Positions 12,001-64,000 of a DNA stretch of 64,000 nucleotides are shown piece after piece. The stretch comes from Watersipora subatra. Taxonomy: Eukaryota > Bryozoa > Gymnolaemata > Cheilostomatida > Watersiporidae. Position 1 is the first letter of the stretch; the number at the start of each line of letters is the position of its first letter. The stretch lies in assembly GCF_963576615.1 (NCBI RefSeq), contig NC_088708.1, positions 9,052,001-9,116,000 of the forward strand. The letters are read 5' to 3'. Position numbers and translations under genes: made by a program. The notes beneath the pieces were generated by a model, which had not been told where the DNA came from, did not search any database, and saw nothing but the letters and a program-made list of their open reading frames with translations.

Positions 12001-13248
12001 AGTAGCTGATTGTATTACCCAAAGGCAACAGCGTTGCATATGAGCTTTGCCTCCCAAGTTTGAGCTGGTCAAATATTCCGCCAAGAAAATCAATTTTGTT
12101 TTGTTATATAAATCTGATTGTAGCTGTGTTATTTCCTCTACTTCCTCCACATGTCTCTAATCGATACTCAGCCCTCTGGTTGAATTTATCTCATCTATGT
12201 TTGTGTTGACTGTTGTTGTTTGTTTGTGTAATTGATCTCTCCGCTTACAGAGTAGTGAACACGAAGAGATCAAGGAATGGGTCCTCGCTGTGAGCATGGA
12301 CCAGAGAGTTGAGCAGTCTCTGCCTCTAGACGAAAGAGAGACGTATGAGGCTTCCCTCATAGCTGGTAACAGCGGTATCCGATCTCTGCCATGCATCATA
12401 ACAGGTAGCAGTGTTTCGACATTTTAATTAGGTGGTCTGATGACTTGTATGGCTTAGTATGATTGTAATTTGAGCTGATAGGGTCAGCTTTTTTCCTCAC
12501 GCTTGCTCTTATCCATTACAAGTTAATCTGAGGCTTTTCTTGGGTTGAGGAGAGCATAGCATAATATTTCTTACTAACCGGTGAGTTCACCGTTGCTAGT
12601 TATTCCTCAACAAGTTCATATGTATAAAAGGCTAATTTGCACTTGGACCTTGTGGTTTGGTTCATGCAAAGTCAAGATGTTATTGACATTGGTCCTAATG
12701 CCTCTCATCATATCACACTTTGCGTATTTCATTTCTCCAAGAAGTATCAGTGAAATAGAGAATGAGGGAGAGAGAAGAGAGAAAATGAGGATGGTGCAAT
12801 ATTTCATAGAAAGTTTTAACTTGCGAATAAGATTCTCTAGATGTTAGAGTTTATTGCTATTTGTTAACTTTACTAGCAGGTTAATCCACATGTTAACTTG
12901 CAGATGTTAACTTGCAGATGTTAATTTGCAGATGTTAACTTGCAGGTTACATTGTCTCTATTCACGAGTCAGACTGTATACTTGCAGTTTATATGTACAG
13001 GTTAGTCTTTATCTACTTGTAGGTTATTCTGCTTATATACACACATTCATTGATATATATTTGCAGGTTATCCTGTTTTGAAAAACAAACTTGAATTCAA
13101 GCGACCAGGTAAAGCTGCTAACAAAGATGATTGGAACAAGTTTCTCATGGCTGTCAAGATGACACACGGAGCTGATCTACAAGATGTCATGAAGTTTATT
13201 GGCTCCTGGTGTGGCGCAGCCCCTAACCCCAGCTATTCGTTTCAGTAA
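1..13248 (+). CDS. IFT172: Intraflagellar transport protein 172, 3' part (5' partial, 24 exons)
   Basis: Subunit of the IFT-B complex that moves cargo along the ciliary axoneme. Exons: 1-78, 343-479, 1734-1841, 2114-2270, 2435-2575, 2910-3023, 3291-3441, 3720-3840, 4131-4368, 4795-5028, 5378-5494, 5699-5841, 5935-6069, 6425-6571, 6678-6845, 6938-7073, 8074-8172, 8593-8766, 9067-9153, 9670-9900, 10283-10498, 11799-11957, 12251-12404, 13067-13248. All junctions are GT-AG and every phase agrees, giving 1208 residues to TAA at 13246. The opening residues [13 protein letters not shown] match the end of the second WD40 propeller; the rest is the TPR-like alpha-solenoid with family words such as [44 protein letters not shown]-type [24 protein letters not shown] and the C-terminal [12 protein letters not shown]. 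The human protein is about 1749 residues, so roughly 540 N-terminal residues are missing left of the window. Introns hold several minisatellites. No frameshift or internal stop was seen. Exon edges are inferred from splice consensus and homology remembered from the family, not from transcripts. Confidence 0.96.
588..1052 (+). repeat. 16-bp G-rich minisatellite in an IFT172 intron
   Basis: About 29 head-to-tail copies of a 16-bp unit, GGGGTGTCAACATTTT, with single-base variants. Because 16 is not a multiple of 3 and the unit has no stop in any phase, all plus frames stay open and give false ORFs repeating [16 protein letters not shown]-like residues. It lies in the intron between exons 343-479 and 1734-1841. 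Confidence 0.97.
1307..1345. mobile_element. Possible hAT-like solo end flanked by direct repeats
   Basis: A 26-bp core that opens CAGGGGCGGGCAACCTGCAG and closes CCCCTG is flanked by TATCTAGAC on both sides. The opening resembles hAT termini; the core is too short to be a whole element. Confidence 0.3.
4555..4614 (-). mobile_element. hAT-like transposon terminus remnant
   Basis: On the minus strand the sequence begins CAGTGGTTCCCAACCTTTGA, the shape of a hAT (Charlie-like) terminal repeat. A matching second end and an 8-bp target duplication were not found, so the element is probably truncated. It sits in an IFT172 intron. Confidence 0.4.
7150..7625 (+). repeat. About 29-bp minisatellite in an IFT172 intron
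   Basis: Tandem units of the form CTCCACAACTATATATG followed by TATACTCTCTGT, around 16 degenerate copies in the intron between exons ending at 7073 and starting at 8074. It yields several spurious ORFs. Confidence 0.92.
10150..10262 (+). repeat. Dispersed SINE-like repeat, copy 1 (tail part)
   Basis: Shares TATAACCGGACA, GACAGACAAACAAACA and TGAGATT with copy 2 near 42.6 kb in the opposite orientation. It ends about 20 bp upstream of IFT172 exon 10283-10498, which consequently lacks a clear polypyrimidine tract. Confidence 0.6.
10980..11215 (+). repeat. 26-bp minisatellite in an IFT172 intron
   Basis: About nine copies of a 26-bp unit containing CATATAACAATACTGTTAC, alternating ACTACAAGT and CACAGTTC ends, in the intron between exons 10283-10498 and 11799-11957. 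Confidence 0.93.
11583..11646. repeat. 20-bp-arm inverted repeat
   Basis: CATAGACCTATTAACTATAC at 11583 and GTATAGTCAATAGGTCTATG at 11627 are reverse complements with one mismatch, spacer 24 nt, itself rich in TTAA. In an IFT172 intron. Confidence 0.9.
12888..12948 (+). repeat. 14-bp short tandem repeat before the last IFT172 exon
   Basis: Four copies of CAGATGTTAACTTG. Each carries TTGCAG, so the array multiplies acceptor-like sequences about 120 bp upstream of the real acceptor at 13066. Confidence 0.85.
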
Positions 13249-13304
13249 AACATGAGCGCTCAGCCCCTAATCCCAGCTATTCGTTTCAGTAAAACATGGG
13301 CAAT
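13217..13304 (+). repeat. 44-bp tandem duplication spanning the IFT172 stop codon
   Basis: CAGCCCCTAACCCCAGCTAT through the stop TAA and AACATG occurs at 13217 and again at 13261 with few changes. The second copy is in the 3' UTR. Confidence 0.93.
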
Positions 13305-32027: not shown

Positions 32028-34171
32028 CCATACAAAAGGTGAGAAAAGATGAGAGAAGACGTACCATCCATTGTTGACTGATATACAGAGGTAGTTAACA
32101 AGATAAGCCAAAAGGAAGCCAACAGCGATAGCAACCTCATTAAGAGATACAAGCTTGCCCCTGTGTTCCTACAAATAATGCATTAACTCTGGACTTATCT
32201 AGGTAAAAGTCATTGACTAATGCTAATCTGCAGCTGTATGCAAAATCTTACATCAATGGCAAGATAAACAAAGACAGCAATTTTGGTTGAAAATTATCAA
32301 AGAGGAATTTGAAGCGGCGCGGAGCATACATACCGGACTAGCGATTTCTGAGATATACGCACACTCAGCCACAGCAGACAGGCCTACAGCGAGTCCGAGC
32401 AGCACTCTCCCTATGATCTACAAGAGGTTCAGCCAAGAGTGCTAGAGGTGAGATATAAGGTTAAAATCATCCTCAAGAATCTGCGAGCGCAACAAATGAA
32501 TATAGAACACCTTAATTTCCCTCAAGCTGAGCAATCAGAAAGTATAAGTGAATAGAGAATAACCTGACAAAAAAGATGAAGTGACAGGAGATGGAAAGCA
32601 GATAGCGAGCCGCTGAACACAAAATGAAGAGAAAATCAGCACTACTATCAATAAGTGAATAATGGGTTCCTTAACCAGTTGGGGAGAGAAAATCAGCACT
32701 ACCATCAAGAAGTGAGTAGTGAGTATCTTGACTAGTAGCGGATAGAAAGCCAGTGCTACCAATAACGAAGTGAGTAGTGAGTACCTTGACTAGTAGCGGA
32801 TAGTAAGTCAGTGCTACCAATAAGGAAGTGAGTAGTGAGTACCTAAGCTGTGAATAGTTGTAACTCACCAAAGAAGTGAATGAGTAGGCAATAGACAAGA
32901 TGAGAGCACCAATTATAAAGAGCACGCAGTTGACTATCATGGTGAGCTTTCTCCCAATCCAATCTATCACAGATCCTTCAAATATCGAGGACAAAATCAC
33001 AATAATCATTTGACAGAGCAAAGATGCAGTGGTCGACAACTAGCTGATTGCAACTAGATGTAGCTAACCGAGCCTTGCCGAGAAGAATTGTGATCTCTTT
33101 GTAAGTTGTAGCCACTAGCATATTTACACGTAAAATTTGCTTTTCACTTATACAGAACAATGCAAATTAATTGGCATAGCATGTCATATCGGTTGTTGTA
33201 AAAAGTCTAGAATGTGATTCGCCAAGATATCTAAATTTGGTTTGCGGACAGATAGAAAAGATAGAAGAAAGGGCTAGCGTTTAATAGCACACTCAGTTAC
33301 CTCCTAAAAGAGAAGAGAGCAAAGCTCCAAATAAAACGCATGACACCAGCAGCTCCTCCTGCAGACATGTCATGTTAAACCTTGTTCTCAGCTGCAATAG
33401 TGCTCCTGATATGATACCTGCAATAGGAAAAAGTATACCAACCTATAACTGAACAAATCACAGAGCTCTCCCTCCCAGAGGTGATTATTCAAGCAAATCT
33501 CCCACAGGTCGCTGTAAAATAATACTCGCAGTGTAAGGGCAGGGACCCTGCAAGTTTATTTTCTTAGAATATTAATGCTATAAATGCATAGGCAGACATC
33601 TTTATTCTAAGGTAATAATTTGGTAGAAGGGTATCTTGATGATGAGACCAGCTAATTTTGCCTAGACAGTTAGTAGCTCATAAGCCAAATCAAAAAGAAA
33701 GTAGAACATGCAAGAGATATATCACTTTCTGAGGTTGAAAGTCTAATGACCTGCTTGCTGTACCAATATACAGAGAGTGGCCTATGTCTATCCCAGCATC
33801 CTTGAGGCTGAACCGCTCTAACTACCTAAATATAACCATACAATGGAAGTTTCTAGAACAAGAATCCAACCAAAGATGAGTTGTTATTTAATTTTAATAA
33901 TACACACTTAAAAATATAAGCATTTTGACTTATTTTAATTTCGTTGTTACAGTAAGTATTCGATAAAAGTAACTAAAATAAAAAGCTTCCATCTCACTGT
34001 GTGACTCACCTGGTGCTTGTGTGAAATGCTAGCACATTTAGCTTTAAGATTACAATGCTTTGCAGTTAACTTGCAGCCCTTACCCATGTCGTATCCAAAC
34101 AAGATTCCACCTGAGGCTGCCACAAGTGATGCTCTGACTGAGAGGTAATTGCTTTTCACTACAACTGCCAT
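23875..34171 (-). CDS. SLC2A12: Facilitated sugar transporter, SLC2A12 (GLUT12)-like, 14 exons
   Basis: Class III GLUT-type major facilitator, a 12-TM plasma-membrane or endomembrane sugar transporter. Exons in coding order: 34171-34084, 33417-33301, 32975-32869, 32417-32334, 32168-32065, 31200-31092, 30187-30098, 29897-29811, 29461-29351, 29165-29029, 28918-28764, 27025-26903, 24662-24530, 24259-23875. All phases agree and the total is 609 residues (human GLUT12 617). Visible motifs: [10 protein letters not shown] in TM1, [17 protein letters not shown] between TM2 and TM3, [10 protein letters not shown] in TM4, VPKTPRFL after TM6, [14 protein letters not shown] in TM7, VDKVGRKK in loop 8-9, [13 protein letters not shown] in TM10 and [11 protein letters not shown] after TM12. 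The large extracellular loop between TM9 and TM10 carries NIS and NSS sequons, as in GLUT10/12. TM10 has GPVTW (GLUT10-like) rather than GPMPW. The last exon is uncertain: after ADEH a GTGAGC donor at 24099 could splice to a further exon. Substrate is not deducible. Confidence 0.92.
25130..25410 (+). repeat. Degenerate AT-rich tandem repeat
   Basis: Many loosely spaced copies of TGTCATATA and ATACTGTCAT in an intron of the sugar transporter. It looks like an old, decayed minisatellite. Confidence 0.6.
25505..25850 (+). repeat. 26-bp minisatellite in a sugar-transporter intron
   Basis: About 13 copies of a unit GGGACATGTCAGTGAATACA + GTTACT. The first eight or nine are almost identical; the last four change GTTACT to ACTGCT, showing two homogenised sub-blocks. 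Confidence 0.96.
27416..28590. mobile_element. TA-flanked inverted-repeat transposon (non-autonomous)
   Basis: Left end TACCCTAGGACACTTTTATT and right end (inverted) TACCCTTGGACACTTATGTA mirror each other, with TA at both borders. Both ends carry TTCGC-rich subterminal sequence. The interior has no transposase ORF but has a doubled CACTGCCATAAACGCATTT motif. It sits in the large sugar-transporter intron between exons 28764-28918 and 26903-27025. Family unassigned; a TA duplication fits Tc1/mariner-like elements. Confidence 0.7.
30632..30872 (+). repeat. 62-bp minisatellite with internal palindrome
   Basis: Four copies spaced exactly 62 bp (anchor GCACTGAACATAGCATACTA at 30639, 30701, 30763 and 30825). 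Each contains the near-palindrome TGTACATCATATGTACA. Located in a sugar-transporter intron. Confidence 0.96.
31546..31590. repeat. Two adjacent perfect palindromes
   Basis: 31546-31572 has 12-bp arms AGCCGATATTTT with a 3-nt loop GAT. 31573-31590 is TCGATATATATATATCGA. Possible cruciform in a sugar-transporter intron. Confidence 0.85.
31975..32026. repeat. (TA)n microsatellite
   Basis: About 52 bp of uninterrupted TA repeat, ending 38 bp from sugar-transporter exon 32065-32168. Confidence 0.97.
32595..32850. repeat. 58-bp minisatellite next to a sugar-transporter exon
   Basis: Copies of AGTGAGTAGTGAGTACCTTG at 32711, 32769 and 32827 (spacing 58), with a more diverged copy at about 32653. 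The array starts about 20 bp inside the intron after the donor at 32868. Confidence 0.9.
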
Positions 34172-38056: not shown

Positions 38057-38857
38057 ACATTACAGAATATTTGTTATACGCATATCTAAACCCAATCGAT
38101 CTGGTTAGGTTACATAAATTAAATGAAACATCATACAATTTTTTGTAAGCTAACCAATGAGGCAGTATTGACGTCTTCTAGTTACAAGAAAACAATTCCA
38201 AGAATATTACACTAAATTTGTAATAAATCAAATATTGAAACAGAGCATATGCTAATCAGCTAAATTAATAGATAGGCCTACACCAAAGAGACCCTGATGG
38301 CTCACAGTAATGCGAATAGATATTTTTCACTAATTGCGTTATTAGCCTGATTTTGCCAAACCTCACATCATTTCAAGTTTACCTAGACTGCTACCGTATA
38401 CCATGCTTTGCTCTCTGCTATGTACCAGTAAGTCTTCAATCAAGCTAAAGTATTTGTTTTACATCTGAATAATAAAAATTACCAAAAAAGATTTATTTTG
38501 TTGCGTTATTCATTTTTACATTTTAGAACTTTCAATCTAACATTTCATTTATTTATAAATTTATCTGGGCGTTTTACCTGATCTGGTCAAAGCGTGTTCT
38601 AGCTACTTTCTTTTAGGAGTTTGAGCGTTCGTTGCATATGGCTTTGACGTATGTACACACATTTGCTTATGAACATCCTAATCGTTCCCTTTCGGTACAC
38701 AGTAAAAGGTTTGACTCGCTAATGGAAGACGAACCAACTAGCTTTCTTAGACGTTTCCCGGAACTTGCTGATAGGCGCAGCCCCGCCTTTTCCGCTACAC
38801 CCGTCAGCGGTCGCAGTAACTTGTCAACCATCTCATTTTTATAGCTTGAAGCAAAAT

Positions 38858-40465
38858 ATGGACAATGAGCAATTTTACTTGGGTTTTGATTTCAGTACGC
38901 AAAGCCTTAAAGTTGTTGCAGTCAATGATCATTTCGACGTCATAATTGAAGAATCAATTAAATTTGACGACATCGGTAAATACAAAACTAGTGATGGTTG
39001 TCATATAAACCCAGACGGTTTAACTGTAACATCGCCGACAATCATGTGGGTTGATGCCCTAGATATTGTTCTTGGACGACTTCTGCAAAAGGGGTTCAAC
39101 TTTCAAGCTGTAAAAGCCATTTCTGGCGCAGGGCAACAGCATGGAAGTGTATATTGGAAAAAGGGTGCCGAAAAGGTTTTAGCATCATTAAATCCGTCTA
39201 GCACACTTGAAACTCAACTGAAGCACTGTTTTACTTTAGAGGAATCTCCAATTTGGATGGATTCTAGCACCAAGAAACAGTGCAAGTATTTGGAAGCTGC
39301 TGTTGGTGGCTCGCAGGCAATGACAGACTTGACTGGCTCGCGAGCTTACGAGCGCTTCACTGGAAACCAAATTCTAAAGGTTATACAAAACTATCCAGAA
39401 ATATACCAGCAAACTGAAAGAATTTCACTTGTTAGTAGCTTTGCAGCTTCTTTACTTCGAGGGGCTTATTGCCAAATCGATGAAAGTGATGGATCTGGTA
39501 TGAACCTCATGAACATCAAATTGAGAGATTGGGATGAAACCCTTGCAAAAGCCTGCAGTCCAGACCTTCAAGATAAACTTGGCATACCAGTTCCAACTGT
39601 AACTGTTCAAGGTTCAATCTCAAAGTACTTTGTTGAGAGATATTCATTTTCAGACACGTGCCAAATTGTCAGTTTTACTGGAGACAATCCTTCTTCGCTG
39701 GCAGGAATGAAACTTGCCAAGGGTGAAGTTGCCGTTTCTTTAGGCAGCTCGGATGTCCTCTTTCTATGGCTTGAAAATCCACTAGCTAAAACTGAAGGTC
39801 ATATTTTTGTAAATCCTGTCGACACAAAAGCCTATATGGCACTACTCTGCTTCAAAAATGGTTCACTTACTAGAGCAGCTATTAGAGATAAGTACGCTCA
39901 TAGCGATTGGTCTCACTTTGAGACATTGCTGTTGAATCAACCTAGAGGAAACAATGGAAAAATAGGATTTTATTACACAATAGCTGAGATTATTCCTGAT
40001 GGTGTAGAAGGTTGTTATTATTTTGATGAAACTGATCAGCAAGTAGAAGATTTTGCTGATGCTGAGCACATTCGAGCAGTCATCGAAAGTCAGTTTCTTT
40101 CACGCAGAGTGCACGCTGAAGACATGGGATTTGAGCTTGGCAAAGATTGCCGAGTATTAGCCACAGGTGGAGCTTCTAACAACCATGCTATTTTGCAAGT
40201 GATGAGCGACATATTCAATGCTCCAGTGTACACCCAGAGTGTTGCTAATTCGGCAGCATTAGGAGCTGCAATGCTTGCTATGCATGCTGTAAACGTTACC
40301 ACTGATAACTTATCATATAAGGAAAGGGTGCACGACACAAGAAACTTTGAGCTGGTCGCTCAACCCCAACCTGACAGCAAACAGGTATATGATGTAATGG
40401 CCGCCAGGTACAGAAAACTAGAAAAGCAAGCAATTGAGCTGCACAGAAAGCAATCTGGACAATAA
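38858..40465 (+). CDS. XYLB: Xylulokinase (D-xylulose kinase), intact and intronless
   Basis: Cytosolic FGGY-family kinase that phosphorylates D-xylulose to xylulose 5-phosphate, feeding the pentose phosphate pathway and ending the glucuronate-xylulose route. The 535-residue ORF is about the length of human XYLB (536). FGGY landmarks: N-terminal phosphate-binding GFDFSTQSLK at residues 8-17, the sugar-pocket word GAGQQHGSVYW, IWMDSST, the catalytic-loop FTGDNPSSLAGM, SLGSSDVLFLW, and the C-terminal adenosine motif ATGGASNNHAIL. I chose the ATG at 38858 because the first 31 residues of the longer open frame look non-conserved and have no ATG. The vertebrate gene has many introns; this copy has none, while all multi-exon neighbours keep theirs, so intron loss or a retrocopy is possible. 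No poly-A tract follows the stop. It lies head to head with the SLC2A12-like sugar transporter and converges on DENND4. Confidence 0.96.
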   Translation: MDNEQFYLGFDFSTQSLKVVAVNDHFDVIIEESIKFDDIGKYKTSDGCHINPDGLTVTSPTIMWVDALDIVLGRLLQKGFNFQAVKAISGAGQQHGSVYWKKGAEKVLASLNPSSTLETQLKHCFTLEESPIWMDSSTKKQCKYLEAAVGGSQAMTDLTGSRAYERFTGNQILKVIQNYPEIYQQTERISLVSSFAASLLRGAYCQIDESDGSGMNLMNIKLRDWDETLAKACSPDLQDKLGIPVPTVTVQGSISKYFVERYSFSDTCQIVSFTGDNPSSLAGMKLAKGEVAVSLGSSDVLFLWLENPLAKTEGHIFVNPVDTKAYMALLCFKNGSLTRAAIRDKYAHSDWSHFETLLLNQPRGNNGKIGFYYTIAEIIPDGVEGCYYFDETDQQVEDFADAEHIRAVIESQFLSRRVHAEDMGFELGKDCRVLATGGASNNHAILQVMSDIFNAPVYTQSVANSAALGAAMLAMHAVNVTTDNLSYKERVHDTRNFELVAQPQPDSKQVYDVMAARYRKLEKQAIELHRKQSGQ

Positions 40466-40863: not shown

Positions 40864-43800
40864 TCACGTCACATCAAGGTGGCCAAAGAGCTTTCTGCAC
40901 CACATGACTGTCGGAGTAGGAGGGGAGTCTGTTATGTGCAAGAGTTCCTTATCTGTCAGTAGCAGCTTTTTGTAGGCAAATTTATATTCTCTATCGAATG
41001 CATCTACAGTAGGAAAAGCGGAATGTGTTGCGCAATCACATAGCTTCTACAGAAATTGTCTGGAGCTCCGAGTAAGATTTGATTGACAATTCTCATTATA
41101 GACAACCAACTGTGCTGTTAAAAAATTACTGAAAATGCAGATCAAAATCGCAAAGGGATCATAATAGAAAACTCACCATGATCCATGGCATCACGCCCAA
41201 AATGTGCAAAAGAAAGAAAAAGAATATCTCTGTAAGCGCTGTGACACTTGAGGGTTGACTTTGTTGATTGCAGTCGCCTGTTGCACAAGATTTGACGGAG
41301 AGGTGTGCACATATCACTACAGCCTACATTTGTCAATATCTGCTGCATGAACCTACAAGCATATATAACCAGCTAGAGTTAGCTCTTTAACATCACCAAC
41401 CACGAAGCGTATTAAATATGTTGTAAATTCATGGCCATACTTGAATAGGTCAGGAGGTGCTTAGTCCTTGGCGGGAGCGTTATTAACCACCCATCCATAA
41501 GTGCACACATAAAGGACTTCATTTTCTATATTGACCTATTTAAAGTAATTTATTATGGTCGTTAACGCTTTCATTACTTGATGAAACTTGGATGAACCTG
41601 CGCATAGTATAATGACAAAATGTGCTCTGATCCACTAATCCTTAGTAAAAGCCAACTCGATCCAGATCTCAAACATTTCATCAAACATGCATCTATTTCT
41701 TTGTTAGTATGTACAAAAATGAAAGTGCAAAAACGTAACCTTGTAATGTTAGTAAATGTAAGTATTACAGAGCATTTCTAGCCTGTGATTGCTTGTAATA
41801 ACTTTTATCATCGTAAATAGGAATTGTGACACATTATTTACAACCAGTCTAAAAAATTGTTAGCCGGGTGAGTTGATCAGCTATGTCACTCAGGTATGAA
41901 TAAAAGTGAAGTTCTAGTATCAGAATTCATAAGATATTCATATCTATGTGATAAAAACTTTCGGTTTATTTTATTTATCAGTGGGTAGGCTAAATACTAT
42001 TACCATGATCAACAGTAGACTCGTAGGAAATATCTGAGATTTGGTTAAAAACCAGAAGATTATCTAAAAGATTGGTAGTATGGCTGTATTACAGTATTTA
42101 TCTAATATAGGCCTATCTTTTACAGATTAATCGAGTATTTTTAGTCCTACAGTAAATACATTTGAGAGTGCTGAATTTGCCTTGAGGTTGAAGCTTACCC
42201 AGATCTGCCTCTTGCAAATTTTAAATTGACTTTTGACCATTTTTGCTTGGCGGAAACTCATCTCAGTAATTTTAATAATTTATTGCTGAGACCAGAGAAA
42301 CCATACAAATAGTGATACTTACGTTGAGGTGCATTTATCAGATAACAAAAGTTGGATGAAATTTTCCATTGATACATGAAGTGTTGCTCAAAAGATAAAA
42401 TAGCCTAGAGAATGAGATGCTAAAATATGGCCAGCATTAACGCAAGTATCTTGAAGTTGCCTACAATTAGTTTGCAGCTACTAACATTGCTGTGTTATCG
42501 ACTCATTCCGAACTAATACAAGAAAATAATCTATCCTTGCATTATTCCTTCAGCTAAAAGGTGAGAAACAGATCAGATCAGCTCTCTAGGAGCTCAAGTG
42601 GAACTAGTCTATCTATATAACGTATATATAAATCTCAATGTTTGTTTGTCCATCTGTCTGTCCGGTTATGACAAGTTTTAGGAATGAAAAATCTGCTGCT
42701 CACTGAATTTGAATTCAGAACCTCCAGTTCTGCAAACAGACATTTATCTAATACATTACACATTCCAACTAGCTATACGATGAAATAAATTGGGCACATA
42801 CTTATTACACATGCCAATCTTCATGGCTTCATGGTTAACACTGCAAAACCCACACCATACGCACACCCATACCAAACGTAAATTGTGTGCCCATATGTGA
42901 AAAAAATCCTCAAACTCACATGGCCAAGACTATTGCAATCAATATAGAGCTGTAGTAGGCACAGCAGCTGGTACCATATGAATTACACAGAAATAAACAC
43001 AACCCATGCAATGCTGAGCATTCAGCTAGTATTCATATTAAGTAAAGACTTACTGCTTAGATTTAGACATATCTTCCGTGACAAGAGCTCTCACCATTGT
43101 AGACTTTTTAGCTGTAACAAATGCATTCATAGTAAACCAGTTGGGTGCCAAAGAGTAAATAACACAGACAAACAAACCACAATTGCCAGTCATGTTTCAG
43201 AATATACATCATGCTAGCATTGGTAATATTGTGAGATAGAGACAAGTTCATCAACCATTAGTCTGTTCTATACGGAAAGCTTCACCTCTGTCTAAATTAT
43301 ATAGAGAGTAAATTATATACGAAAAATATATGAATAATCAAAAGAAGCAATCTGTACAAGGTCAAACTACAATATATTTGTCACAGATGTGTTAGCTTAG
43401 TAATACGTACTGACCTGAATCTTTCCAGAGCTTGTACATAGGAGTTGCCATAGCGTCATGCAGCCTGGGGTTATCCCAGACAACTCGAAGTGAAATATCA
43501 CAGGGAGCAGACGAGGCTGTATGCATGTCATCTAGTTGCAGTGTTTTTGATTGAAACAATAGCTGTGGGAGATGACTCGGCACATTCATACGTTTGAAAT
43601 ACCACATCTGTAAAGGAATGTCCAGAGTTGTGCTCAGTTAAAGATTTTAGAACACGAGCAACCCCATCAACAATAATAATTTGACTTTCATTCGCAAATT
43701 GAACCTTACCAAATTGAACCTTACCAAATTGAACCTTACCAAATTGAACATTACCAAATTGAACCTTACCAAATTCCAATAAACAATCGAATGATTGTCA

Positions 43801-46800
43801 ACAAAGTCGGGGTGCGTCAGAGCTACATCTCCTTCCCTGTCAAGTACAATCTCTAATTCCTTCCGTAGAACTAATGGGCTAAGGTATGGCAATTTTATTG
43901 GCTCCCGGCTTGTGCTGCTGAGAATGACAAACAAAAATTGTTTCCCAACAAATAAATGAGGCAGTTGAAAAGTGTTAAGTAGATATTTCTGTGTTTGCCG
44001 AGTGAAGTTTTTGCAGTTTTATATTTTCATATCCAAAGGCAGTTGGAAGTTATGCGCTTCTTTGGTAGTACAAACTGGCAAAAACCTATCGTCATCTATC
44101 AATTGATTGAAGTCAACAACGAAAAACCGCCTAATTTGCACCAAAGTGTAAATCACATAAAACAAGAACATAAAACGAACTTGAAGTACTGCTTACTCGG
44201 TGTCTGATCTGGGAGTCAATGGGGGAGTTGAAAAACAAGTATCATCCGATGCTGGCTTATTATTACCTTTCACCCTCAAGTCTTTAATCTCAATCTGCAG
44301 GAATGGTACCTGCTTTCTATCACAGAACCTACAGCTGTCAAACAGCAACAGAATTTAAATGTGTACTTCAAACCAAGCGTGCAAACATTACAAACAATTT
44401 TTTCATCTCAAAAAAAGACAACATCTGTTAAAATACTGTTTTAAAGTGCTTTGAGGAGCTAGTGTTAGCAGATAATTTTTAATCACAATGGCTTACTCTA
44501 TACAAATCTCAAGAACCAAAAATCATAACTAACCTGACATCAAAGGTCATGACTTTAAGCATTAATGTGTCAAGTGTAGCTTACAGTATAAAAAATTGCT
44601 TAATTAGTAACAGATGGCCATAAGCTGATCTGGTGACAGCATCATATTTGTACAGTTCAAATGTATACAACGTACTGGTAAAGCGAATAGACATATACTT
44701 ACGTAGTGCTCAAATCACTGTCTTGTGCTGACCAGCCTGCCATTATATTCTCATCATAGAGAATGGCTGAGCAGTGCTCGCAGAGCGTTGCTGAGCAAAT
44801 GACCACTGACAGCACAGGACCTTTGTGTGTAAAATCAAACAAGCTGTCTGGTGCATCATGGCCCGACGCTGGTGGTAGATATTTGTACATGAACGCAGCT
44901 GATATGCCATCTACAAACAATATAAATGGAATTGTATCAAATGTTGTGTGAACAGTGCAAGTGAACAGAAGCCACAAGGGCCAAAAAGGCTAATTTTAAC
45001 GAGTGTATAACGAGTAAAAGACTCACTGTAAGAAATTCTCACATCAAAGGGCTTATCTCCATCATCATGAGGTACACCTCCCTCTTCAGGGTTGGGCGCT
45101 AATACCCCCAATCCACTGTGTGAACTAAGCCTATCAAATATTCACAAAGATGGCTACAAATAATGACTATCAAAACGATAGGCCCAATATCTGCTCTTAT
45201 GTGCTTCAAGATTTTTGTCACCACAAGTACGTTAATAATACAAATGATCAAATTTTGCTAAAAGTGGCTTAATGATCAGAGTTCAGCATGGCTTTTGTTA
45301 ATAAGTTATACTTGGAAGCATGTAACCTGAAGTATGTTTATATATAATAACTGCACATCTGCATTCACTACCAGTGACTACAGAATACGGAACTCACAGA
45401 CTAATGTTGTCTTCATTACTCTTAGCATCCGATGCTTTATCATCCTTATACGGTGTGCTGACAGTGCTAGGGGTGTGATACTCTTTGACAGTATGTTTCA
45501 GGTGCTTATAATTAGCTGTGGTCGCCTGCATCAGCTTACTGGCCACTGATGATGACACTGATTTAATCTTCTTTAATGATGCCCTCATGTCCTCATTTCT
45601 ACTGCAAGAGAAAGTTACTTAACACAGTGCATAAAACTGAAGTTTTGCCAACTAATGAACATTGAATTATCAAGTTGCACAATATTAGAGAAGACAGCGA
45701 ACAATAATACCAACTTTTTTATAGACTTGGGTGTAGATCCGATGCTATCCAAACTTTCTCGAGAAGACAACGCATCTACAAAATACAAACGCAGTGAGGT
45801 TCCGAAATATGAGTTTCAGTTCGCTCGTATCTTCAAGTAATTTGTTTAATTTATTATCATAGTAAAATGAATTTACTGTAGTAAACTTTAGTGTAATAGC
45901 CATACGTACCATACTGTATTACCTTTATTTACCATACTTAGATACCATACCTAGCGATACTTATTAGGGCTAAGTATATAGACAACTACTAGCTTACACT
46001 AATCGCAAGAAAAACTTACTTGAGGTATATTCTAAAGCTTGTTCAAACCGATAGAAGGCTGTTACACTTACTAAAATCTGATCATGATGGAGCAGCAAAC
46101 ATAGAAACACTAATAATTTGTGCTAGCAAATTTGTACAGACATAACACACAGAAGTACTACAATTGTTAAATGTTGTCATTCATTGCAAGTGAAAAACTA
46201 ACATGAAATTATAGTTGGTATAACTATACTAGTTTATGAATAATGAAAAGAAGTAATGAGATTTTTGGATTCTCCATTCATTTTGTTTACTCTTTGATAT
46301 AGATGCAAAGCTTGAGTTTGTACAAGTCCACAAAGTGACTAATCAATCATTATAGCTGTGGTTTCAAGGTTGATAGGCCTATCAAGAGAGATATTTTGAG
46401 TAACAGACATAGAGTATACGACAGCTATATCTCTCACACCAATGTTCAAATTACAGGTCTATGAAGCAACTTTATATATTATTGTATTAAAGTATTTGTA
46501 TCTGTATTTATAATATTGTCAGGCACCAGCTTCAATGCCTTTATACCAACAATTTTTGTATAATTTCTCAGCATAGATTGGTTTCTACACTATAACAGAG
46601 GTCTGTAGTTTGTGTTCACTAGTTGTAGAATTTATCTTCAAGTTCAAGTTGCAATTTTTTTTCAGGGCTGAACATTTTAGTAGACTATCAGCAAAGTCCA
46701 ACTTTATTATGTTAAATTAAACTATACATGTGTGTTTCAAAAGAAATTAGAAGGAAACTACTACTTAGACGTATAAAGAACGCATCAGACCATATTAGCA

Positions 46801-49800
46801 GCAAGACTAACGAGGTTCTGTACCTATGGTAAAGCAAATAAATAGATCACAAAGAGATTTCTCTTACTAGCTGGTTCGGCCTTTGGCTTTTCTCCATACA
46901 CCATCGACTTCATTTTTGATAAGTTTTTTGTGAGTGCAAAACCACTTGCTGACTTCTTGAGAGAGGCTGTAACCCAGCCCTTGTATGATGAACCATTGGT
47001 CGCATCTTCCAAGTTTGCATTTGATAGACTATCCTAAAGAAAAGAACTGTTAATTTCTAATTTGTGTCATGTTTGATAATAAAACTGCTTGAAGCAAATC
47101 TCAAACTTTCCAAAGGTTTACAGACTCGAACACAAACTTGCATACTGACTTTTGAGCTGTTATCTTTCGCACTTCTGCCACCTGGTGTGCTAATCTCAGA
47201 GGTCAGCTCGGCAACTTTTTGACCCTCCTCCTGCAGGGCAGCCTGCAAGGACAATTAATAATATATATTTTGCTGAATAATACGGAAAGCTAAAACAATT
47301 ACTTGATTCAACGTAACATTGATGAAAGAAATAGAAGTGCTGACATCTGACTACCCGAACAAGAAACATTAAACAATAGGTATTGCCCTATAAGCAATAG
47401 GTATTGCCCTATAAGCAATAGGTATTGCCCTATAAGCAATAGGTATTGCCCTATAAGCAATAGGTATTGCCCTATAAGCAATAGGTATTGCCCTATAAGC
47501 AATAGGTATTGCCCTATCAGCAATAGGTATTGCCCTATAAGCAATAGGTATTGCCCTATAAGCAATAGGTATTGCCTAATGTTTCTTGTTCAATTATCTC
47601 TTCAATTCACACTCAAATCATTATTCAAACACAAACATTTTACAAACTCCAAGAATTTTTCTATATTGGGTTGTTACCCAAATTCAACGAAGCAGATGTA
47701 TTAGCAAACCTAATTTTAGTTAAAGATGCTACCTTGTAGCTGTTGTGCGAGTCCAAACTAACACTCTTGCGCAGCGGTTGCGATGGGAAGCTTGCTGGTG
47801 GTTCATCAGGTGACAGCTCAAGCAGGTTATACTTCTTCACTTCACTGTCAGTGGCTGTTGTGCTGCCGCGTCCAAACAACTTGTCTAGCAAACACATTGT
47901 TCTATTGCATGCTCATCATTTATATACACAAGGTTTCATATAAAGCTGCTATAATGCAATTTATTTTTCACCATTGATAGTTTAGAGTAGAATAGACGTA
48001 CCGACATCCATGGATGTGATAGATGAGGTCTGAGAGCTGCTAGGAGTGTCATCTGCTTTAGGTGTGCTTTGCTCCACATCAGAATTGGAAAACAATCCGA
48101 GTGGGTCATCGCTCACAACTGAGCAAACGAAATGGTTAAACAAAGAATTACAAAATGTAACAAAAGCCTGTGACTCTACAAATTAGTTTGAATTATGAAA
48201 ACTATTGTGGTAAACCAATCAAGCAACCAGAATCATCTGCTAACTTTTCAAAATCTCATAGCTACTTAGCAGATGGTGGTGTACACAACTCTTTGAAGCA
48301 GCTCAACACACTTCTCCAGGTTATAAATAATAACATTAATGAAGCAGAATTAAGATTTCAAACGATTCATTGGGTTGTCTCTGCATGCTTTCTGCTACAT
48401 TTAAATTCACATCATCACATCTGATTAGCAATAATGACGAGTGATTACAAACTTACCAGATTTTTTCTTCAAAGGGTCATCTTGGAAGGGCTGAGAATAA
48501 ATGTCTGTTGTAATAGAACTAAGAGAGAGTGGATCCAGAACACCGCCTTTGCTAATCTGAGATAAAGTTGCCGTCTGAGGCTGAACCACATAATCATTAT
48601 CAAGGGATATATTATCCCCTGCACCATCACCTACATTCCCATCGACTACAGTTTGACTGGTCGGAGTGGCCCGACTTTCTGCAATGTCCAGAAGAGGCAT
48701 GTTTTCAGCGGTCTTGTCTCCAGCAGAATGACCAGAAACTGCCTTCTCATCTTCATTCTCTGCCTCTTCTACCAACTGTGATACAGAATGTGTCTCTATG
48801 AGTCACATGAGGATATGCAAAAACATATGATTACCAAAACCCCTTTAAGAAGGTATTGTCTCCGTATGCTCTCCTTTATCTCTGATATTATACAGCAATA
48901 TAAAGATCATACTAATGTACGGCTACCTCACCATACCAATGTTTTTATCTCATCATTTCACCACTTCTGACTCACCATACCAATGCTTCTGCCTTCAAGA
49001 CATGTAAAGTAAGTACAGTGCACCCTCGTGCAGTAAGTACAGTACGGCTGCCTCACCATACCAATGTTTTTATCTCATCATTTCACCACTTCTGACTCAC
49101 CATACCAACACTTTTGCCTTCAAGACATGTAAAGTAAGTACAGTGCACTCTCAGGATACGATTACCTTGAGACATACGATTTTTTCACCTTACGAAGTAG
49201 AACCTGATGATTTTTTTCACCTCGACATACGAATCTTATTTCACCATAGGAATCCAACAAAACTTTCGTCCGCGTTCAAATTTGGCAGTCGGTATGCTTA
49301 TTATGTACATCAAAATAACAAAGACACTGCAATGCTGTTCGCCAAAAATATTTTCACAGTACCTGATAGAGACACGATGACCAATTTCTCTAAATTCCGT
49401 AATTCTTGTATGTAAAACGGTAATTTTTTTTAAACCAGAAGCAATGCTGGAATTATGATCTCTTCAAACAGAAGGTCAGCCGTCAGACAACTTTCCTTAA
49501 CCTGCTACCAAAAATCTACTTCATTACGAAAACAGCATCATTCGGGCTTTCTTGCTGAATTAAGTTGGAAAAGGTTTTAAACAGGTCTGCTACAAGTTTT
49601 AGAGAAAGCGAAGACAGAAACTGACAAGTAGAAAATTTTATTGATGAAAGTTGAAACTCAGTAAAATGGTTAAAAATACATACTAAAACTTAGCTTCAAG
49701 TGTGTGTGTTTAGTAAGCTAAACTTATTTGAGGTGAATTCAAAGTTTATGTTATCCGTACATCTGTCTTGAAGGTAAGAACTCCCTACAGTACTGCATAT

Positions 49801-52800
49801 GGTACATTACGGATATTACATTTTATTGCAGATCACAACTACTAAATACAATAAAATTACTGTAGGTAACTATTATAATTACTAAGGTTAACATACTATT
49901 TTGCTACTAATTTTAATATGTACAGCATTTATATAAAATTTTGACGAGTTTTACCAAGGGATGGTTGCATTATATAATTGCTATCATTTCTATACCCCCT
50001 ACATACATTTTCACCATACGATGCCAACCCTGGAACGGATCAAAATCGGGTACTGAGGGTGCACTGTACCTGACTGCGTCTTAGTTGATCTCCTGCACTC
50101 TTGTGCCGCTTTTTAGCCTCACTAAGCTCTGTTCGGTAGCTGCCTGTGTTAAGGCTACCCCCCAAAGGCAGCTGCCATACTGTCCTTTTGGCAGTCATCA
50201 GCAGCCCGGCAGAGTTCGCCACTGCAATACAGCCATATTAGGAATTAAGAGAATAATGCTGAACGCATGTCTGTAGCACCAGGAGACGTAGTAGAATGAG
50301 AAGTATGCAAGGTCTTACTGGCCTCCCCTGGTTCTGGTGAAGAGCTCAATGCTATAATTACAATGTATTCATTTCTACAGCTACTCTCCAGAATATGAAG
50401 ACACCAGTCTCTATGTGAACAAAAGCAATAGTAGCTAAATGCTTTGGTGATTTTGTAACCAACACAAGGGTTATTTTTGCCTTTTCTGAAAGAGAAAAGT
50501 CACTTATCTACCCTAAACACTTACTTATAGGCAGCCCATTATGAAGAATCGCACTACACTAACACTGATTGTTTTCATATATATGGTATTGAAAACAGAC
50601 CTTTAACAGTAACAAAAGATGTTTTACTGGTTATAAAAACTGTCAACTCCATATGCATCAAGTTACGATATTTATTCACATAGTGCTTAGCAAGATCGTT
50701 TTTGTAACAAACTATCTTGATTAGCTGCCCGATCGATCAATCTATATTAAGAAAGCAGCAAAGAGCAGTAAAAATTTCACAGACTTGTATTATTGACTTC
50801 CATGGAAGGAGACAAATGTGAAATGGTAAATACTTACAGTGACTGCCTGTGATATTATGGCTGGTTCCACTGTCATCACCGCTAAGGTTCATCTTTATGA
50901 TACTGCCGACTTTGGCGCAAAACACTGCATTCTGTGTGTCACTCACTGTAAAGACCATGTTGTGATTATGTGTTCCACACAAGCAGCTAGAAGCAAATAC
51001 TTAACACAATAGACATCTCTCACCCATTCGCTTCTGTATCTAGCCCAACGAATAAGAGCCTTTGAGTCATAACAAGAAATCATGACTAGGCGATGCATTC
51101 ATCTTAAGCTGGGCGGCAGGAGAGAGTGATGACTGCATATGTACAGCCCATCATGTCATAGTAATGACATGATGGGCTGTATTCCAGACAGCCCATCATG
51201 TCATTACTATGTTAAACCATAACTGTCACGTATAACTTTTATCGTATTTTCTAGGTAAATCAGACACGCGGATTCCAATTTTGTACTCAAAATAAAGATT
51301 GGTCCACTAACCTTCAAAGTCATGAAGGCTTTTTTAAAGTGTTTTAAAGATGTGGTTGCGTCAAAAAGGTCGATTTAATGAAATTAAAACCCATAAAAGG
51401 CTAAAACATCAGCTACAATTTGATGCCATTTTTGTCTTTGTAGACCGACCCTGTCCAGAGATGTATGCGTTTGAATGAGGCCCTCTTTTAAAAAGCTCAC
51501 GTTCCAGCGGGTGCTTCTTTCGTGACGTCACTAGTGATACATCTGAAAAGAAACCACGATCAATAAATATAAGGTCGCTTCATTAGCCAATCATCAGCGC
51601 GAAACTTTTATATAGGTCGTAATAAATGTTATCACTCGTAAAACGCGTTGTCTGTGATCTCGAATTTAGGGATTTTACTCTATTATTAAATCGCATGGAC
51701 ATCGATATTTACTAAATTAATTAACATCGTTACTTTAATGAATTACTCGATCGACAAGTTTTATTGGCGAACAACATAATTGTAAAAATTGCTGTGAAGT
51801 TACTGCGAAGGTGACTCCGAGTTTTCTGGGCATCAGGTGGTTAAAGTTCTACGAGGAAGATCAGAGAATGGAGGTAAATTTATCTTTTACTTTGAGTCTC
51901 CTATAGAGTTTCCTGTTGAGTTTACATTCAGATTATATTTCCTTGTTTGAGGCTAAAATGTAATTTCCTGCGCGTGCGAGATACGTATGTACAGTAAGTT
52001 CTTGACGGCTTCTTTTTAATCTTTAGCATCTAGCAATACAATGGCTTAGATTGATGAATATACTGAAGGTAATATTTTAGTACTCATTAATACATGTACT
52101 AATTAATAAAATTATAACTTTTTGCTATCACTAATCATCGTTTTATAATTTTTTATCGGTTCACCTAGCTACATTTGCTTAAAGTTTTCTGTGGCAGTTT
52201 TATCTAGTAAATTAGATTTATGATTTGACTTTGGATGTTCACTTCTCACTTGTAGAAAGTGAAGAAAATCGATTGATCAATGCAAATCTTCAATTTCCAG
52301 AACCAAAGCTCCGAATCGTTGGCTTGGCGTACTTATGCCTTTGTTAAACATTTATTCATTTTAAAAATTACACTCGCAATCTATCTAACTCCCAATTTGA
52401 AAGCTTTCAGTAGATACACGTTAGAATGACATATCTATGAATGACATATATTTATTGTATTTGTTTTACAGATTACAGGATGTTTATGTGGTCCCACCCG
52501 CCGAAGCAGCTTTGTCAGTGTGGAAACTGCCATAAATGGGAAAGAGAGACTTGAATGTGTGCTGCATAAACCATGATGTTTTGTTTGAGTTTGCTGCAGT
52601 AGATGAATTTGTCTTATTGTATCAGCTAAAACTATGTGAGTGGCCACGACTTGATGAATATTTTTAATGAAAGCTTTATGCCAAGAAGAAAATTTTTTCG
52701 TTTGTAAAAATTATATAATAAAATAATAATGTTGAAGATAATGCAAAACATGATTTGCAGAATATTGTAGTAAATTGGATACGGTATATGGATGTCCGCA

Positions 52801-61800: not shown

Positions 61801-64000
61801 CCTTGTCCCTGCTCTTTATGAAACCTGCATTTGGGAAACAAAATGCTCTGAGACTAATCTACAATGCAAAACCTGGAAACCATTTTTAATCAGCAAATAA
61901 TCACAGTTCTAAGTTTTACTTTTTCGGAGGCAAAATGAAAGATCATCCGGTAGTAGCTGCGATAGTCATGTAAACATGATTCCTGTTTAGTATACTACCT
62001 TTAATATCGAATAAGTTTTTAACACTGGTAGAGACTTCACTAGGAGCGGAGGTTATCGGTAGAAGGAAGTTCTTGTAACCTTTCAACATAGCAGCCATGA
62101 ATCGAAGAAATGCTTCCTGGATTAACAGTTCCATGGCATTCTACAACATCTTCAGAGAATAAAATACTAGCTAATCAGCTGTCTTTCTAAAATGTCATGA
62201 GCCTCAAACATAGCTCTACACGAGTAACCTTGTGGTCTGAAAGTAAGTATTACGTTGTACTTGTTTGTATTGGTTAAACACCCTCATAGGTTACACCATT
62301 TGTCTGGGGTTATGCAAGCACGGTGTCTTATAGCTTATACAGAATAAAATAGGGGCACAGAAATTCTGTCAAACAGTTTACTCAATCCAATTACAAGTGG
62401 TCTTCATTATGTGCTTGGTATTTTTAGCTTTCCTTATATCAATCTCACGCTTTTAAAGCATAACAGTCAGCCTATCTACCTCCCTACTGACTCAACATCT
62501 ACCTCACTACTGACTCAACATCTACCTCACTACTGACTCAACATATACCTCACTACTGAGTCCATATCTACTTCCCTACTGACTCAACATCTACCTCCCT
62601 ACTGACTCAACATCTACCTCCCTACTGACTCAACATCTACTTCCCTGCTGACTCAACATCTACCTCCTACTGACTCAACATCTACCTCCCTACTGACTCA
62701 ACATCTACCTACCTGCTGACTCAACATCTACCTCCCTACTGACTCCACATATACCTCACTACTGAGTTCATATCTACCTAACTACTGATTGAATCTTGCA
62801 AGTTCTTCCTTTACAACTTTGAAACATTTAAGGTATTATTCATATTGAATGACAGATTTAAGGATTTCTTTGCACAAATAATGATTTTTTGCCTAACAAT
62901 TCCTAGTTCCTGAATTAATCATATAAAGTAAAAATATAACCTTTTCCAGTTAATATTTAATAAACGCGTCCATTCAATTTTTTAATAATATTTGCTAGTA
63001 ACAGTCAATTGGTTTGCTGTCAGTTATGCTATGAATCATAATGCTTATCAAGATATGGTAGCTTTTTCAGTATATTACCTCTGCTGCCACCTGTTTTTCA
63101 CTAGACATCACAGTGCCATGCTGCTCGCTGACTATCTTGTAGTAAAGATTTTCCAATGTCGCCCTGAGCACTTTCGTGGGCCTCTATAACAAACAGCATG
63201 TTATCCAAGAGCAGCTACGGCAATGCCACACTGATATGCTTTTGTAAAAAATAAACCAAATTTATTTGATTCTTATACAGTACATAGCATACCTTAGGTA
63301 AGAGTTTGCTGTCGCTGGGCTTTGAAATTGTGTTTGTGTCAAGGTCAAAGCATGTAACGTCCTGCGGAGGGTCATATAGGTCAAAGTATCGTGAGTCAAC
63401 TCCTAGCAAACAATGTGCATTGTAAGACTCTTATACTAATCTGCTTATGACAAACTACTTCCAGTTTCGACATGTTTAATGATTCCAGCCTCCTTTCCAT
63501 CGCATAAACTCGGTTGATCCCAAATTTAAAACCAGATGCTGGTAGGATGACTTTAGAAACAAGCAAGTGAAGAGACAGGAAATGAACAGGTAAACAGACT
63601 TGTGTTCAAACAGGTACATTTATACAGAAGAGAAAATGATTGTTTAGGTTGTCTTACGCGTAATGGGTAGGGGTCCATCTATAATGGAAATAGGTACTAA
63701 CCAAATATGTATGGCACGGGAGCAAAGAGCATCTGCGTGAGGCCGAGGGGACACAGGGGAATGTAAGGGCATTTCCAGCTGAACGGAAATATCATTGTTC
63801 CTAAAACATCAGTTGAAAATACATAAAAAATGGGGCTGCTGAAAATCTCTCGAGTAATAAACAAGGGCAATATGTAGGAGCTTTTAGTAACTAAAGGCTG
63901 GTTCACACTATATTACCGTATTTCAGCTTTAATGCCACAATACTTCGGTGATCGTCGATGATAGCAATTTTCACACTATCACAAACTCATCCGCGTTTAC
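40864..64000 (-). CDS. DENND4: DENN domain-containing protein 4 (Crag-type Rab10 GEF), 3' part, 27 exons
   Basis: Rab guanine nucleotide exchange factor; DENND4/Crag proteins activate Rab10 (and Rab11 in flies) in exocytic and basolateral traffic. Exons in coding order: 63800-63702, 63402-63293, 63183-63079, 62140-61999, 61824-61626, 61519-61297, 58932-58738, 56138-56010, 55901-55787, 55667-55551, 55210-55139, 50945-50838, 50221-50070, 48775-48457, 48118-48002, 47884-47733, 47242-47150, 47033-46868, 45775-45715, 45601-45398, 45130-45027, 44910-44703, 44328-44197, 43917-43770, 43607-43411, 41352-41177, 41003-40864. Phases agree throughout: 1326 codons to TGA at 40864. The N-terminal MABP and uDENN parts lie beyond 64000. 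Seen here: cDENN end ([24 protein letters not shown]), dDENN ([19 protein letters not shown]), PPR region ([29 protein letters not shown]), a long low-complexity linker, and the conserved C-terminus ([46 protein letters not shown]). The donor of exon 45775-45715 is weak (GTTGGT), but only it keeps the frame. Confidence 0.94.
42610..42785 (-). repeat. Dispersed SINE-like repeat, copy 2 (longest)
   Basis: Read on the minus strand: a head with GCAGAACTGGAG and a B-box-like TTCAAATTC, then GCAGCAGATTTTTCATTCC, then CATAACCGGACAGACAG and a CATTGAGATTTATATATA tail. The head matches copy 3 and the tail matches copy 1, so the three belong to one family. The B-box-like segment suggests a tRNA-derived SINE, which is an inference. 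Confidence 0.6.
43696..43775. repeat. 15-bp tandem repeat containing a DENND4 splice donor
   Basis: Five copies of AAATTGAACCTTACC (plus strand), that is GGTAAGGTTCAATTT on the coding strand. The donor of exon 43917-43770 (TTTG/GTAAGG) is the first of five equivalent sites spaced 15 nt apart; one copy reads GTAATG. The array crosses the exon-intron border. Confidence 0.95.
47357..47591. mobile_element. 21-bp minisatellite enclosed by perfect terminal inverted repeats
   Basis: About ten copies of CAATAGGTATTGCCCTATAAG lie between GAACAAGAAACATTA (47357-47371) and its exact reverse complement (47577-47591). The structure looks like a short inverted-repeat element whose interior is a satellite. 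No clear target duplication. It is in the DENND4 intron between exons 47733-47884 and 47150-47242. Confidence 0.9.
48917..49140. repeat. About 125-bp tandem duplication beside a transposon
   Basis: GTACGGCTACCTCACCATAC begins at 48917 and again at 49042. Copy 1 ends with a 13-nt stub of the transposon terminus (CAGTGCACCCTCG); copy 2 runs straight into the complete element at 49141. Confidence 0.9.
49141..50066. mobile_element. Tigger-like (Tc1/mariner superfamily) non-autonomous transposon
   Basis: 926 bp bordered by TA (49139-49140 and 50067-50068), with ends CAGTGCACTCTCAGGATACG and, inverted, CAGTGCACCCTCAGTACCCG. Subterminal GACATACGA and CCTTACGA words resemble pogo/Tigger termini. No transposase remains. 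The right end coincides with the splice donor of DENND4 exon 50221-50070. Confidence 0.8.
51142..51211. repeat. Two overlapping perfect hairpins sharing one arm
   Basis: Arms 51142-51159 and 51164-51181 (18 bp, loop AGTA) pair perfectly. Arms 51157-51180 and 51188-51211 (24 bp, loop ATTCCAG) also pair perfectly. The common word is ACAGCCCATCATGTCAT. Only one can form at a time. It ends directly at the TTAA of the neighbouring transposon. Confidence 0.95.
51520..52560 (+). pseudogene. Possible decayed gene inside the TTAA element
   Basis: CRE-like TGACGTCA (51523), CCAAT (51587) and TATATA (51609) precede an ATGGAG/GTAAAT at 51868. A strong acceptor TTTGTTTTACAG at 52471 opens a short frame that stops after about 33 codons. 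This looks like the 5' end of a former transposon gene; no domain is recognisable. Confidence 0.3.
52776..52855 (+). repeat. Dispersed SINE-like repeat, copy 3 (head part)
   Basis: Contains GCAGAACTGGAG, GAGTTCAAATCC (a good RNA polymerase III B-box match) and GCAGCAGATTTTTCAT, as in copy 2. The tail is missing. It is nested inside the TTAA-flanked element. Confidence 0.55.
52942..53011. repeat. GC-rich imperfect inverted repeat
   Basis: GATATACAGCC at 52942 and GGCTGTATATC at 53001 pair around a C-rich/G-rich interior, a local GC island in AT-rich DNA, inside the TTAA element. Possibly a small nested element. Confidence 0.6.
57481..58553. mobile_element. TA-flanked inverted-repeat transposon, copy A
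   Basis: Left end TACCATAAAACCTCTAATTG; right end, inverted, TACTGTAAAACCTTTATTTG. About 1.07 kb, no ORF of note. Homologous over most of its length to copy B at 59.6-61.1 kb in the same orientation (for example AAAAAATTGTTTGGACACTA-like and TTGATAGATTATT words). In a DENND4 intron. Confidence 0.75.
59628..61052. mobile_element. Inverted-repeat transposon, copy B, with extra internal segment
   Basis: Same ends and body as copy A (CCATAAAACCTCTAATTGAA; inverted CCGTAAAACCTGTAATTC). It carries about 250 bp (60670-60925) absent from A, open on the minus strand for 66 codons with no domain I recognise, and a re-duplicated left end. In a DENND4 intron. Confidence 0.7.
61077..61100. repeat. (TA)n microsatellite
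   Basis: Short pure TA run directly abutting the hairpin at 61099-61164. Confidence 0.9.
61099..61164. repeat. 66-nt hairpin, 31-bp arms, 4-nt loop
   Basis: ATTACCTGCAATTGAGATAG at the start pairs with its complement at the end; the inner TTCTTTTCA pairs with TGAAAAGAA around AAAA. Only one mismatch in 31 bp. Located in a DENND4 intron, 133 bp beyond the donor of exon 61519-61297. Confidence 0.95.
62470..62790. repeat. 23-bp minisatellite in a DENND4 intron
   Basis: About 13 copies of CATCTACCTCCCTACTGACT + CAA with substitutions such as TATACC and TCACTAC. Lies between exons 63079-63183 and 61999-62140. Confidence 0.95.

Follow-up and report, generated by a model that had tools for sequence, protein, structure and literature searches.

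A 15-bp minisatellite straddles the 3′ edge of a coding exon in a DENND4-like gene and carries five predicted splice donors at 15-nt steps, all in the same reading frame and four of them identical. The reading that we favour, with a probability of about 0.6, is that of a young minisatellite born at the exon boundary, in an animal genome rich in minisatellites. In this reading, donor 1 would be the main site and a minor use of the downstream donors would yield in-frame isoforms with 5–20 extra residues, which would be noise, tolerated or slightly deleterious, and not a regulated switch. The window is the whole 64-kb stretch of DNA that was analysed, and the features on which the argument turns are the following:

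43770 to 43917, minus strand: coding exon of the DENND4-like gene, ending W-N-L (TGG AAT TTG), from the phase-consistent exon model and the sequence
43695 to 43775, minus strand: 15-bp minisatellite, unit GTAAGGTTCAATTTG, 5.4 copies, covering the exon's final 6 bases, from TRF and pattern search
43764 to 43769, minus strand: putative donor 1, GTAAGG, yielding YWNL/MWYF
43749 to 43754, minus strand: putative donor 2, GTAATG, a weaker variant
43734 to 43739, minus strand: putative donor 3, GTAAGG
43719 to 43724, minus strand: putative donor 4, GTAAGG
43704 to 43709, minus strand: putative donor 5, GTAAGG; the CGAATG after its unit is no donor
43608 to 43769, minus strand: intron, 162 nt from donor 1, with acceptor CCTTTACAG
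43415 to 43607, minus strand: next coding exon, beginning after CCTTTACAG

Read directly on the minus strand, the order across the boundary is TTTATTGGAATTTG, GTAAGGTTCAATTTG, GTAATGTTCAATTTG, GTAAGGTTCAATTTG, GTAAGGTTCAATTTG, GTAAGGTTCAATTTG, CGAATG, and the exon itself is preceded by the acceptor TTCTCAG. The second of the five units has GTAATG instead of GTAAGG, which is the sole difference among them, and donors 1, 3, 4, and 5 are letter-identical from −6 to +15. TRF reports the array (43695-43775) with a period of 15, 5.4 copies, 96% matches, and a score of 155. Moreover, the pattern AATTTGGTAANGTTC, with at most two mismatches, occurs five times in the 64-kb window, always within the array, and this number was reached in 0 of 100 shuffles (maximum 4). 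The five in-frame GT donors at 15-nt steps, four of them identical, which the preliminary description had proposed, are thus borne out by the sequence, by TRF, and by the translated products. The positions that it gave for the donors are right as well, except that they were those of the T of each GT; the G, the first intron base, lies one base higher, at 43769, 43754, 43739, 43724, and 43709. That the copy number could be an assembly or allele artefact, the true locus having a single donor, is a very improbable explanation: assemblies are error-prone at tandem repeats, but a single read of any of the common technologies would span an array of 81 bp, and a distinguishing base marks the second unit.

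The host gene was modelled as 16 minus-strand exons, from 50945 to 43054, picked by eye with GT/AG ends. Their phases agree once one donor is shifted by four bases (last exon base from 45711 to 45715), and the last 14 of them form an open frame of 663 residues. Upstream on the same strand, the exon 61625-61858 matches the Pfam dDENN domain with an E value of 7.5e-15, above the cut-off, and a sub-threshold match to the DENN domain, covering its end, lies at 63218-63430 (E 0.0034; 17.8 bits for a curated cut-off of 23.4). Both are tied to exon 43917-43770 by their strand and by a crude gene model, which holds spurious small exons and was partly trained on the 16 exons themselves. The gene of exon 43917-43770 probably belongs to the DENN family, as these matches suggest; of the DENND4 identity first put forward, the family stands, and the subfamily is presumptive. 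The name DENND4 comes from human DENND4, whose C-terminal block with W-N-L-(V/M)-W-Y-F is presumably conserved. The YWNL/MWYF part of the protein gave 0 matches in Pfam and 0 in the PDB, and the read-through VRFNL stretch had no match in Pfam. A PDB search with the dDENN exon returned one match, the cerebellin/glutamate-receptor construct 5kca (E 6e-05), which was set aside as it is not a DENN protein. Around this gene, we also observed a 21-bp minisatellite in one of its introns (47370-47576, minus strand, 9.9 copies at 98%) and, upstream of its exons, a long inverted repeat around TAGTAATGACATGATGGGCTGT, with an additional direct copy after it (51140-51215, minus strand, read by eye). Just past its modelled 3′ end, an uninterrupted open reading frame of 580 codons runs on the plus strand (38723-40462), and what it encodes presumably resembles a xylulokinase.

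The resemblance between the junction and its intron was compared with 3000 dinucleotide shuffles. The best match of the junction 16-mer in its own intron is 14/16 (P 0.0007), and three copies reach at least 12/16 (P 0.0003, the lowest value that 3000 shuffles can give). Such copies are unlikely to be a product of chance. The position of the array was also set against the array density of the window, which holds 26 non-overlapping tandem arrays with a TRF score of at least 50, totalling 3769 bp and selected from 76 TRF rows by removing the overlapping and lower-scoring ones. When these 26 arrays are placed at random, a mean of 2.9 fall on a junction of the list, which has 70 entries. When the placements may include no more than 12 nt of listed exon, a threshold set post hoc, after the array was seen, a mean of 0.32 arrays fall on junctions and the chance of at least one is 28%, one being observed; with the same threshold, one 81-bp array by itself would cover a listed donor in 0.7% of cases. 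Hence, for the window as a whole, some array meeting some junction while sparing the exon is nothing surprising; for this one array considered by itself, it is. As not all junctions are listed, the expected overlaps between arrays and junctions are probably higher than these values.

The strength of the donors was estimated in two ways. Using a position matrix built from the gene's other 15 donors (leave-one-out), TTG/GTAAGG scores 4.31, which exceeds 3 of these 15 donors and lies below the 12 others, and TTG/GTAATG scores 1.76, exceeding one of the 15. The calculated pairing with the 5′ end of U1 amounts to −8.5 kcal/mol for donors 1, 3, 4, and 5 and to −5.3 for donor 2. The median in the window's 35 introns is −5.5 kcal/mol, and −8.5 ranks sixth of the 35 in a set that includes the array's own intron and takes 21 introns from a crude model of IFT172, so that wrong weak donors may flatter this rank. 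Between 60 nt upstream and the end of the intron, the highest-scoring GT apart from these donors is GTCAAA at 43685, which has a score of 1.78, about that of donor 2, and a poor U1 pairing (−1.6). By these calculations, donors 1, 3, 4, and 5 are unremarkable in strength, equal to one another, and predicted to be usable, and donor 2 is predicted to be weaker.

Splicing from donors 1–5 would remove introns of 162, 147, 132, 117, and 102 nt, respectively, the shortest intron in the model measuring 66 nt. Translation of the five predicted forms keeps the frame in each of them, with 0, 5, 10, 15, or 20 residues added between YWNL and MWYF, the last two pentapeptides gained being VRFNL. As anticipated in the preliminary description, a change of copy number cannot shift the frame, given the 15-bp unit and the five in-frame products. 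A third of all periods are multiples of 3, however, and 82% of the 15-bp units starting with GTAAG that were drawn from the window are stop-free in this phase. Thus, an array that is both in frame and stop-free is weak evidence for design.

Donor 1 is probably the ancestral site and the main productive one, and it is favoured as the main site because it leaves YWNL-MWYF uninterrupted. The downstream donors are probably used somewhat, giving minor in-frame isoforms. In human exons with near-equal donors, short flanking introns (<250 nt) are reported to favour the downstream donor and long ones the upstream donor, and in exon-defined human minigenes carrying two identical donors 52 nt apart the upstream one was exclusively used (PMC9225289). 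For human coding sequence, selection is reported to act against tandem sites that keep the frame (3, 6, or 9 nt), most in ordered regions (PMC2279118). The introns flanking exon 43917-43770 are 168 and 162 nt long and, given the human preference for the downstream donor in this setting, they speak against a main role of donor 1. On the other hand, the interruption of a motif that appears conserved and the selection against human tandem sites argue against the use of the downstream donors.

The same observations weigh on other ways of reading the array. It could be a functional multi-donor device, in which several donors are substantially used and the shares of isoforms carrying 0–4 pentapeptides depend on copy number and splicing conditions. 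In its favour, four donors are identical and every product is in frame; its inserts, however, would land in the apparently conserved motif, and the selection reported against in-frame human tandem sites speaks against it. We hold it to be unlikely, even though the short flanking introns would favour downstream donors as in the human data and although IFI6 of human is reported to have three mRNA species, produced by the use of two of its downstream repeat units as donors (PMC4526556). Conversely, donor 1 could be solely used, the remainder being inert intronic DNA. YWNL-MWYF would then be intact, and the minigenes with identical donors offer a precedent for exclusive upstream use; but the introns here are short and belong to the other class of that study, and the sites are identical and 15 nt apart, so that exclusive use would require a position rule. 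This appears quite unlikely to us. Quite improbable too is a copy-number-variable array in which the acceptor-proximal donor would be preferred and each gained repeat would add one pentapeptide to the main isoform, inside an otherwise invariant motif. If it were true, the locus would constitute a natural series for the choice of the spliceosome among identical donors 15 nt apart. As for RNA structure as a selector of donors, the predicted fold of the array region is not more stable than those of shuffled sequences (z −0.44). We observed in its centroid fold that an exon word, CATTCG, and an intron word, CGAATG, which flank the array (43689-43793, minus strand) and are complementary, pair with each other; this pairing would place the donor array in a loop of a fold that, as a whole, does not surpass shuffled sequences.

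In the reading that we prefer, with a young minisatellite born at the boundary and donor 1 as the main site, the ancestral junction would have been AATTTG/GTAAGGTTCAATTTGCGAATG, containing two AATTTG words 15 bp apart, one at the exon end and the other at intron position 10. A first duplication of 15 bp could have arisen by replication slippage or by unequal exchange between these AATTTG words, and repeats of this event would have led to the growth of the array. The exon ends with AATTTG, and the last unit also ends with AATTTG, then CG. We infer this junction from the present units; no relative of the exon was confirmed in the viral contigs and prokaryote genome contigs searched, where animals are not expected; the exact repeat was likewise absent from the viral contigs, in which animals are not expected either. 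The near-identity of the units, with one difference among five, suggests that the growth of the array is recent.

We also asked whether other junctions of the window have copies in their introns. Thirty-five introns provided 33 donors and 33 acceptors, two introns being dropped as their target was shorter than 40 nt. Three junctions have a P value ≤0.05, namely the array donor, the donor of DENND4 intron 1, and the acceptor of the last IFT172 intron. A genome-wide habit of duplicating splice junctions in introns is unsupported, since 3 of 66 junctions is about what chance gives, and the combined statistics (50.4 and 32.1, with 66 degrees of freedom each) indicate no excess. As a possible second case, we considered a 58-bp repeat (32630-32844, minus strand) which begins around 24 nt past a donor of a transporter-like gene and whose units hold donor-like words; it was rejected, as it has no similarity to the donor above that of shuffles (P 0.35 and 0.90). 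The plus-strand gene at around 2–13 kb is IFT172, according to a PDB match with an E value of 6e-157, the edited model protein being used as query. Its last intron contains, at 12890-12945 (plus strand), four copies of the 14-bp ATGTTAACTTGCAG, one with a base change, each of them acceptor-like at its end. These copies outscore the inferred real acceptor of IFT172 at 13067, and splicing into any of the four hits a stop. Their similarity to this acceptor exceeds that of shuffles (P 0.0003 for the copies and 0.011 for the best match), for a repeat that was chosen after being seen and that ends around 120 nt from the acceptor. Further on, the coding end of IFT172, stop codon included, is apparently tandemly duplicated (13213-13300, plus strand, read by eye).

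Several known systems can be compared with this array. Tandem alternative splice sites, i.e., GYNGYN donors and NAGNAG acceptors, are described as closely spaced and as causing small protein changes (PMC1779574, PMC8055015); they consist of two sites a few nucleotides apart, whereas whole junctions are copied here. In human segmental duplications, internal tandem repeats at exon–intron boundaries are reported to alter splicing patterns, with 27 intron modifications in the survey after manual inspection (PMC2812944), but the cases described there are novel introns between paralogues and not stacked donors. In human CBS, a 31-bp VNTR, c.1444_1467+7(16_21), is present in 16–21 copies at the exon 13/intron 13 boundary (PMC2630376), and a higher copy number is reported with a lower CBS activity (PMC5188458). 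This VNTR resembles our array as a tandem repeat across an exon/intron boundary, which by its notation includes the donor. It differs in that its 31-nt unit is not divisible by 3, and in being longer and polymorphic, while the array here is known from one sequence.

A minisatellite with multiple donors is already known in human. Turri, Cuin and Porter published in 1995 a minisatellite providing multiple splice donors in IFI6 (G1P3, 6-16), the units of which are reported elsewhere to be used as alternative donors (PMC4526556), and the initial impression of a donor minisatellite as something unusual gives way before it. As in an array of the IFI6 type, the repeat here starts inside the exon end (the last 6 exon bases being overlapped), its units hold plausible donors (four GTAAGG and one GTAATG), and all the alternative donors keep the frame in the five translated products. 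The IFI6 minisatellite is said to have a 12-nt unit resembling the donor consensus, in around 26 repeats from near the end of exon 2. Its in-frame inserts are reportedly of 4 or 8 residues, 12 nt being also a multiple of three. In both genes, the minisatellite units carry splice donors, the use of which is reported in IFI6, while those described here are predicted from the sequence; the gene and the animal are other ones, the unit is of 15 nt, and the copies are fewer. The same accident would have occurred as in human IFI6, a minisatellite having grown across a splice donor, and the DENND4-like array, with its predicted donors, is another example of it. On sequence alone, the biological claim is modest. 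What deserves attention in this example, beside IFI6, is the identity of four donors and the probable taxonomic distance from human, and four letter-identical donors would allow one to test, in a clean natural setting, how position affects the choice between donors of equal strength.
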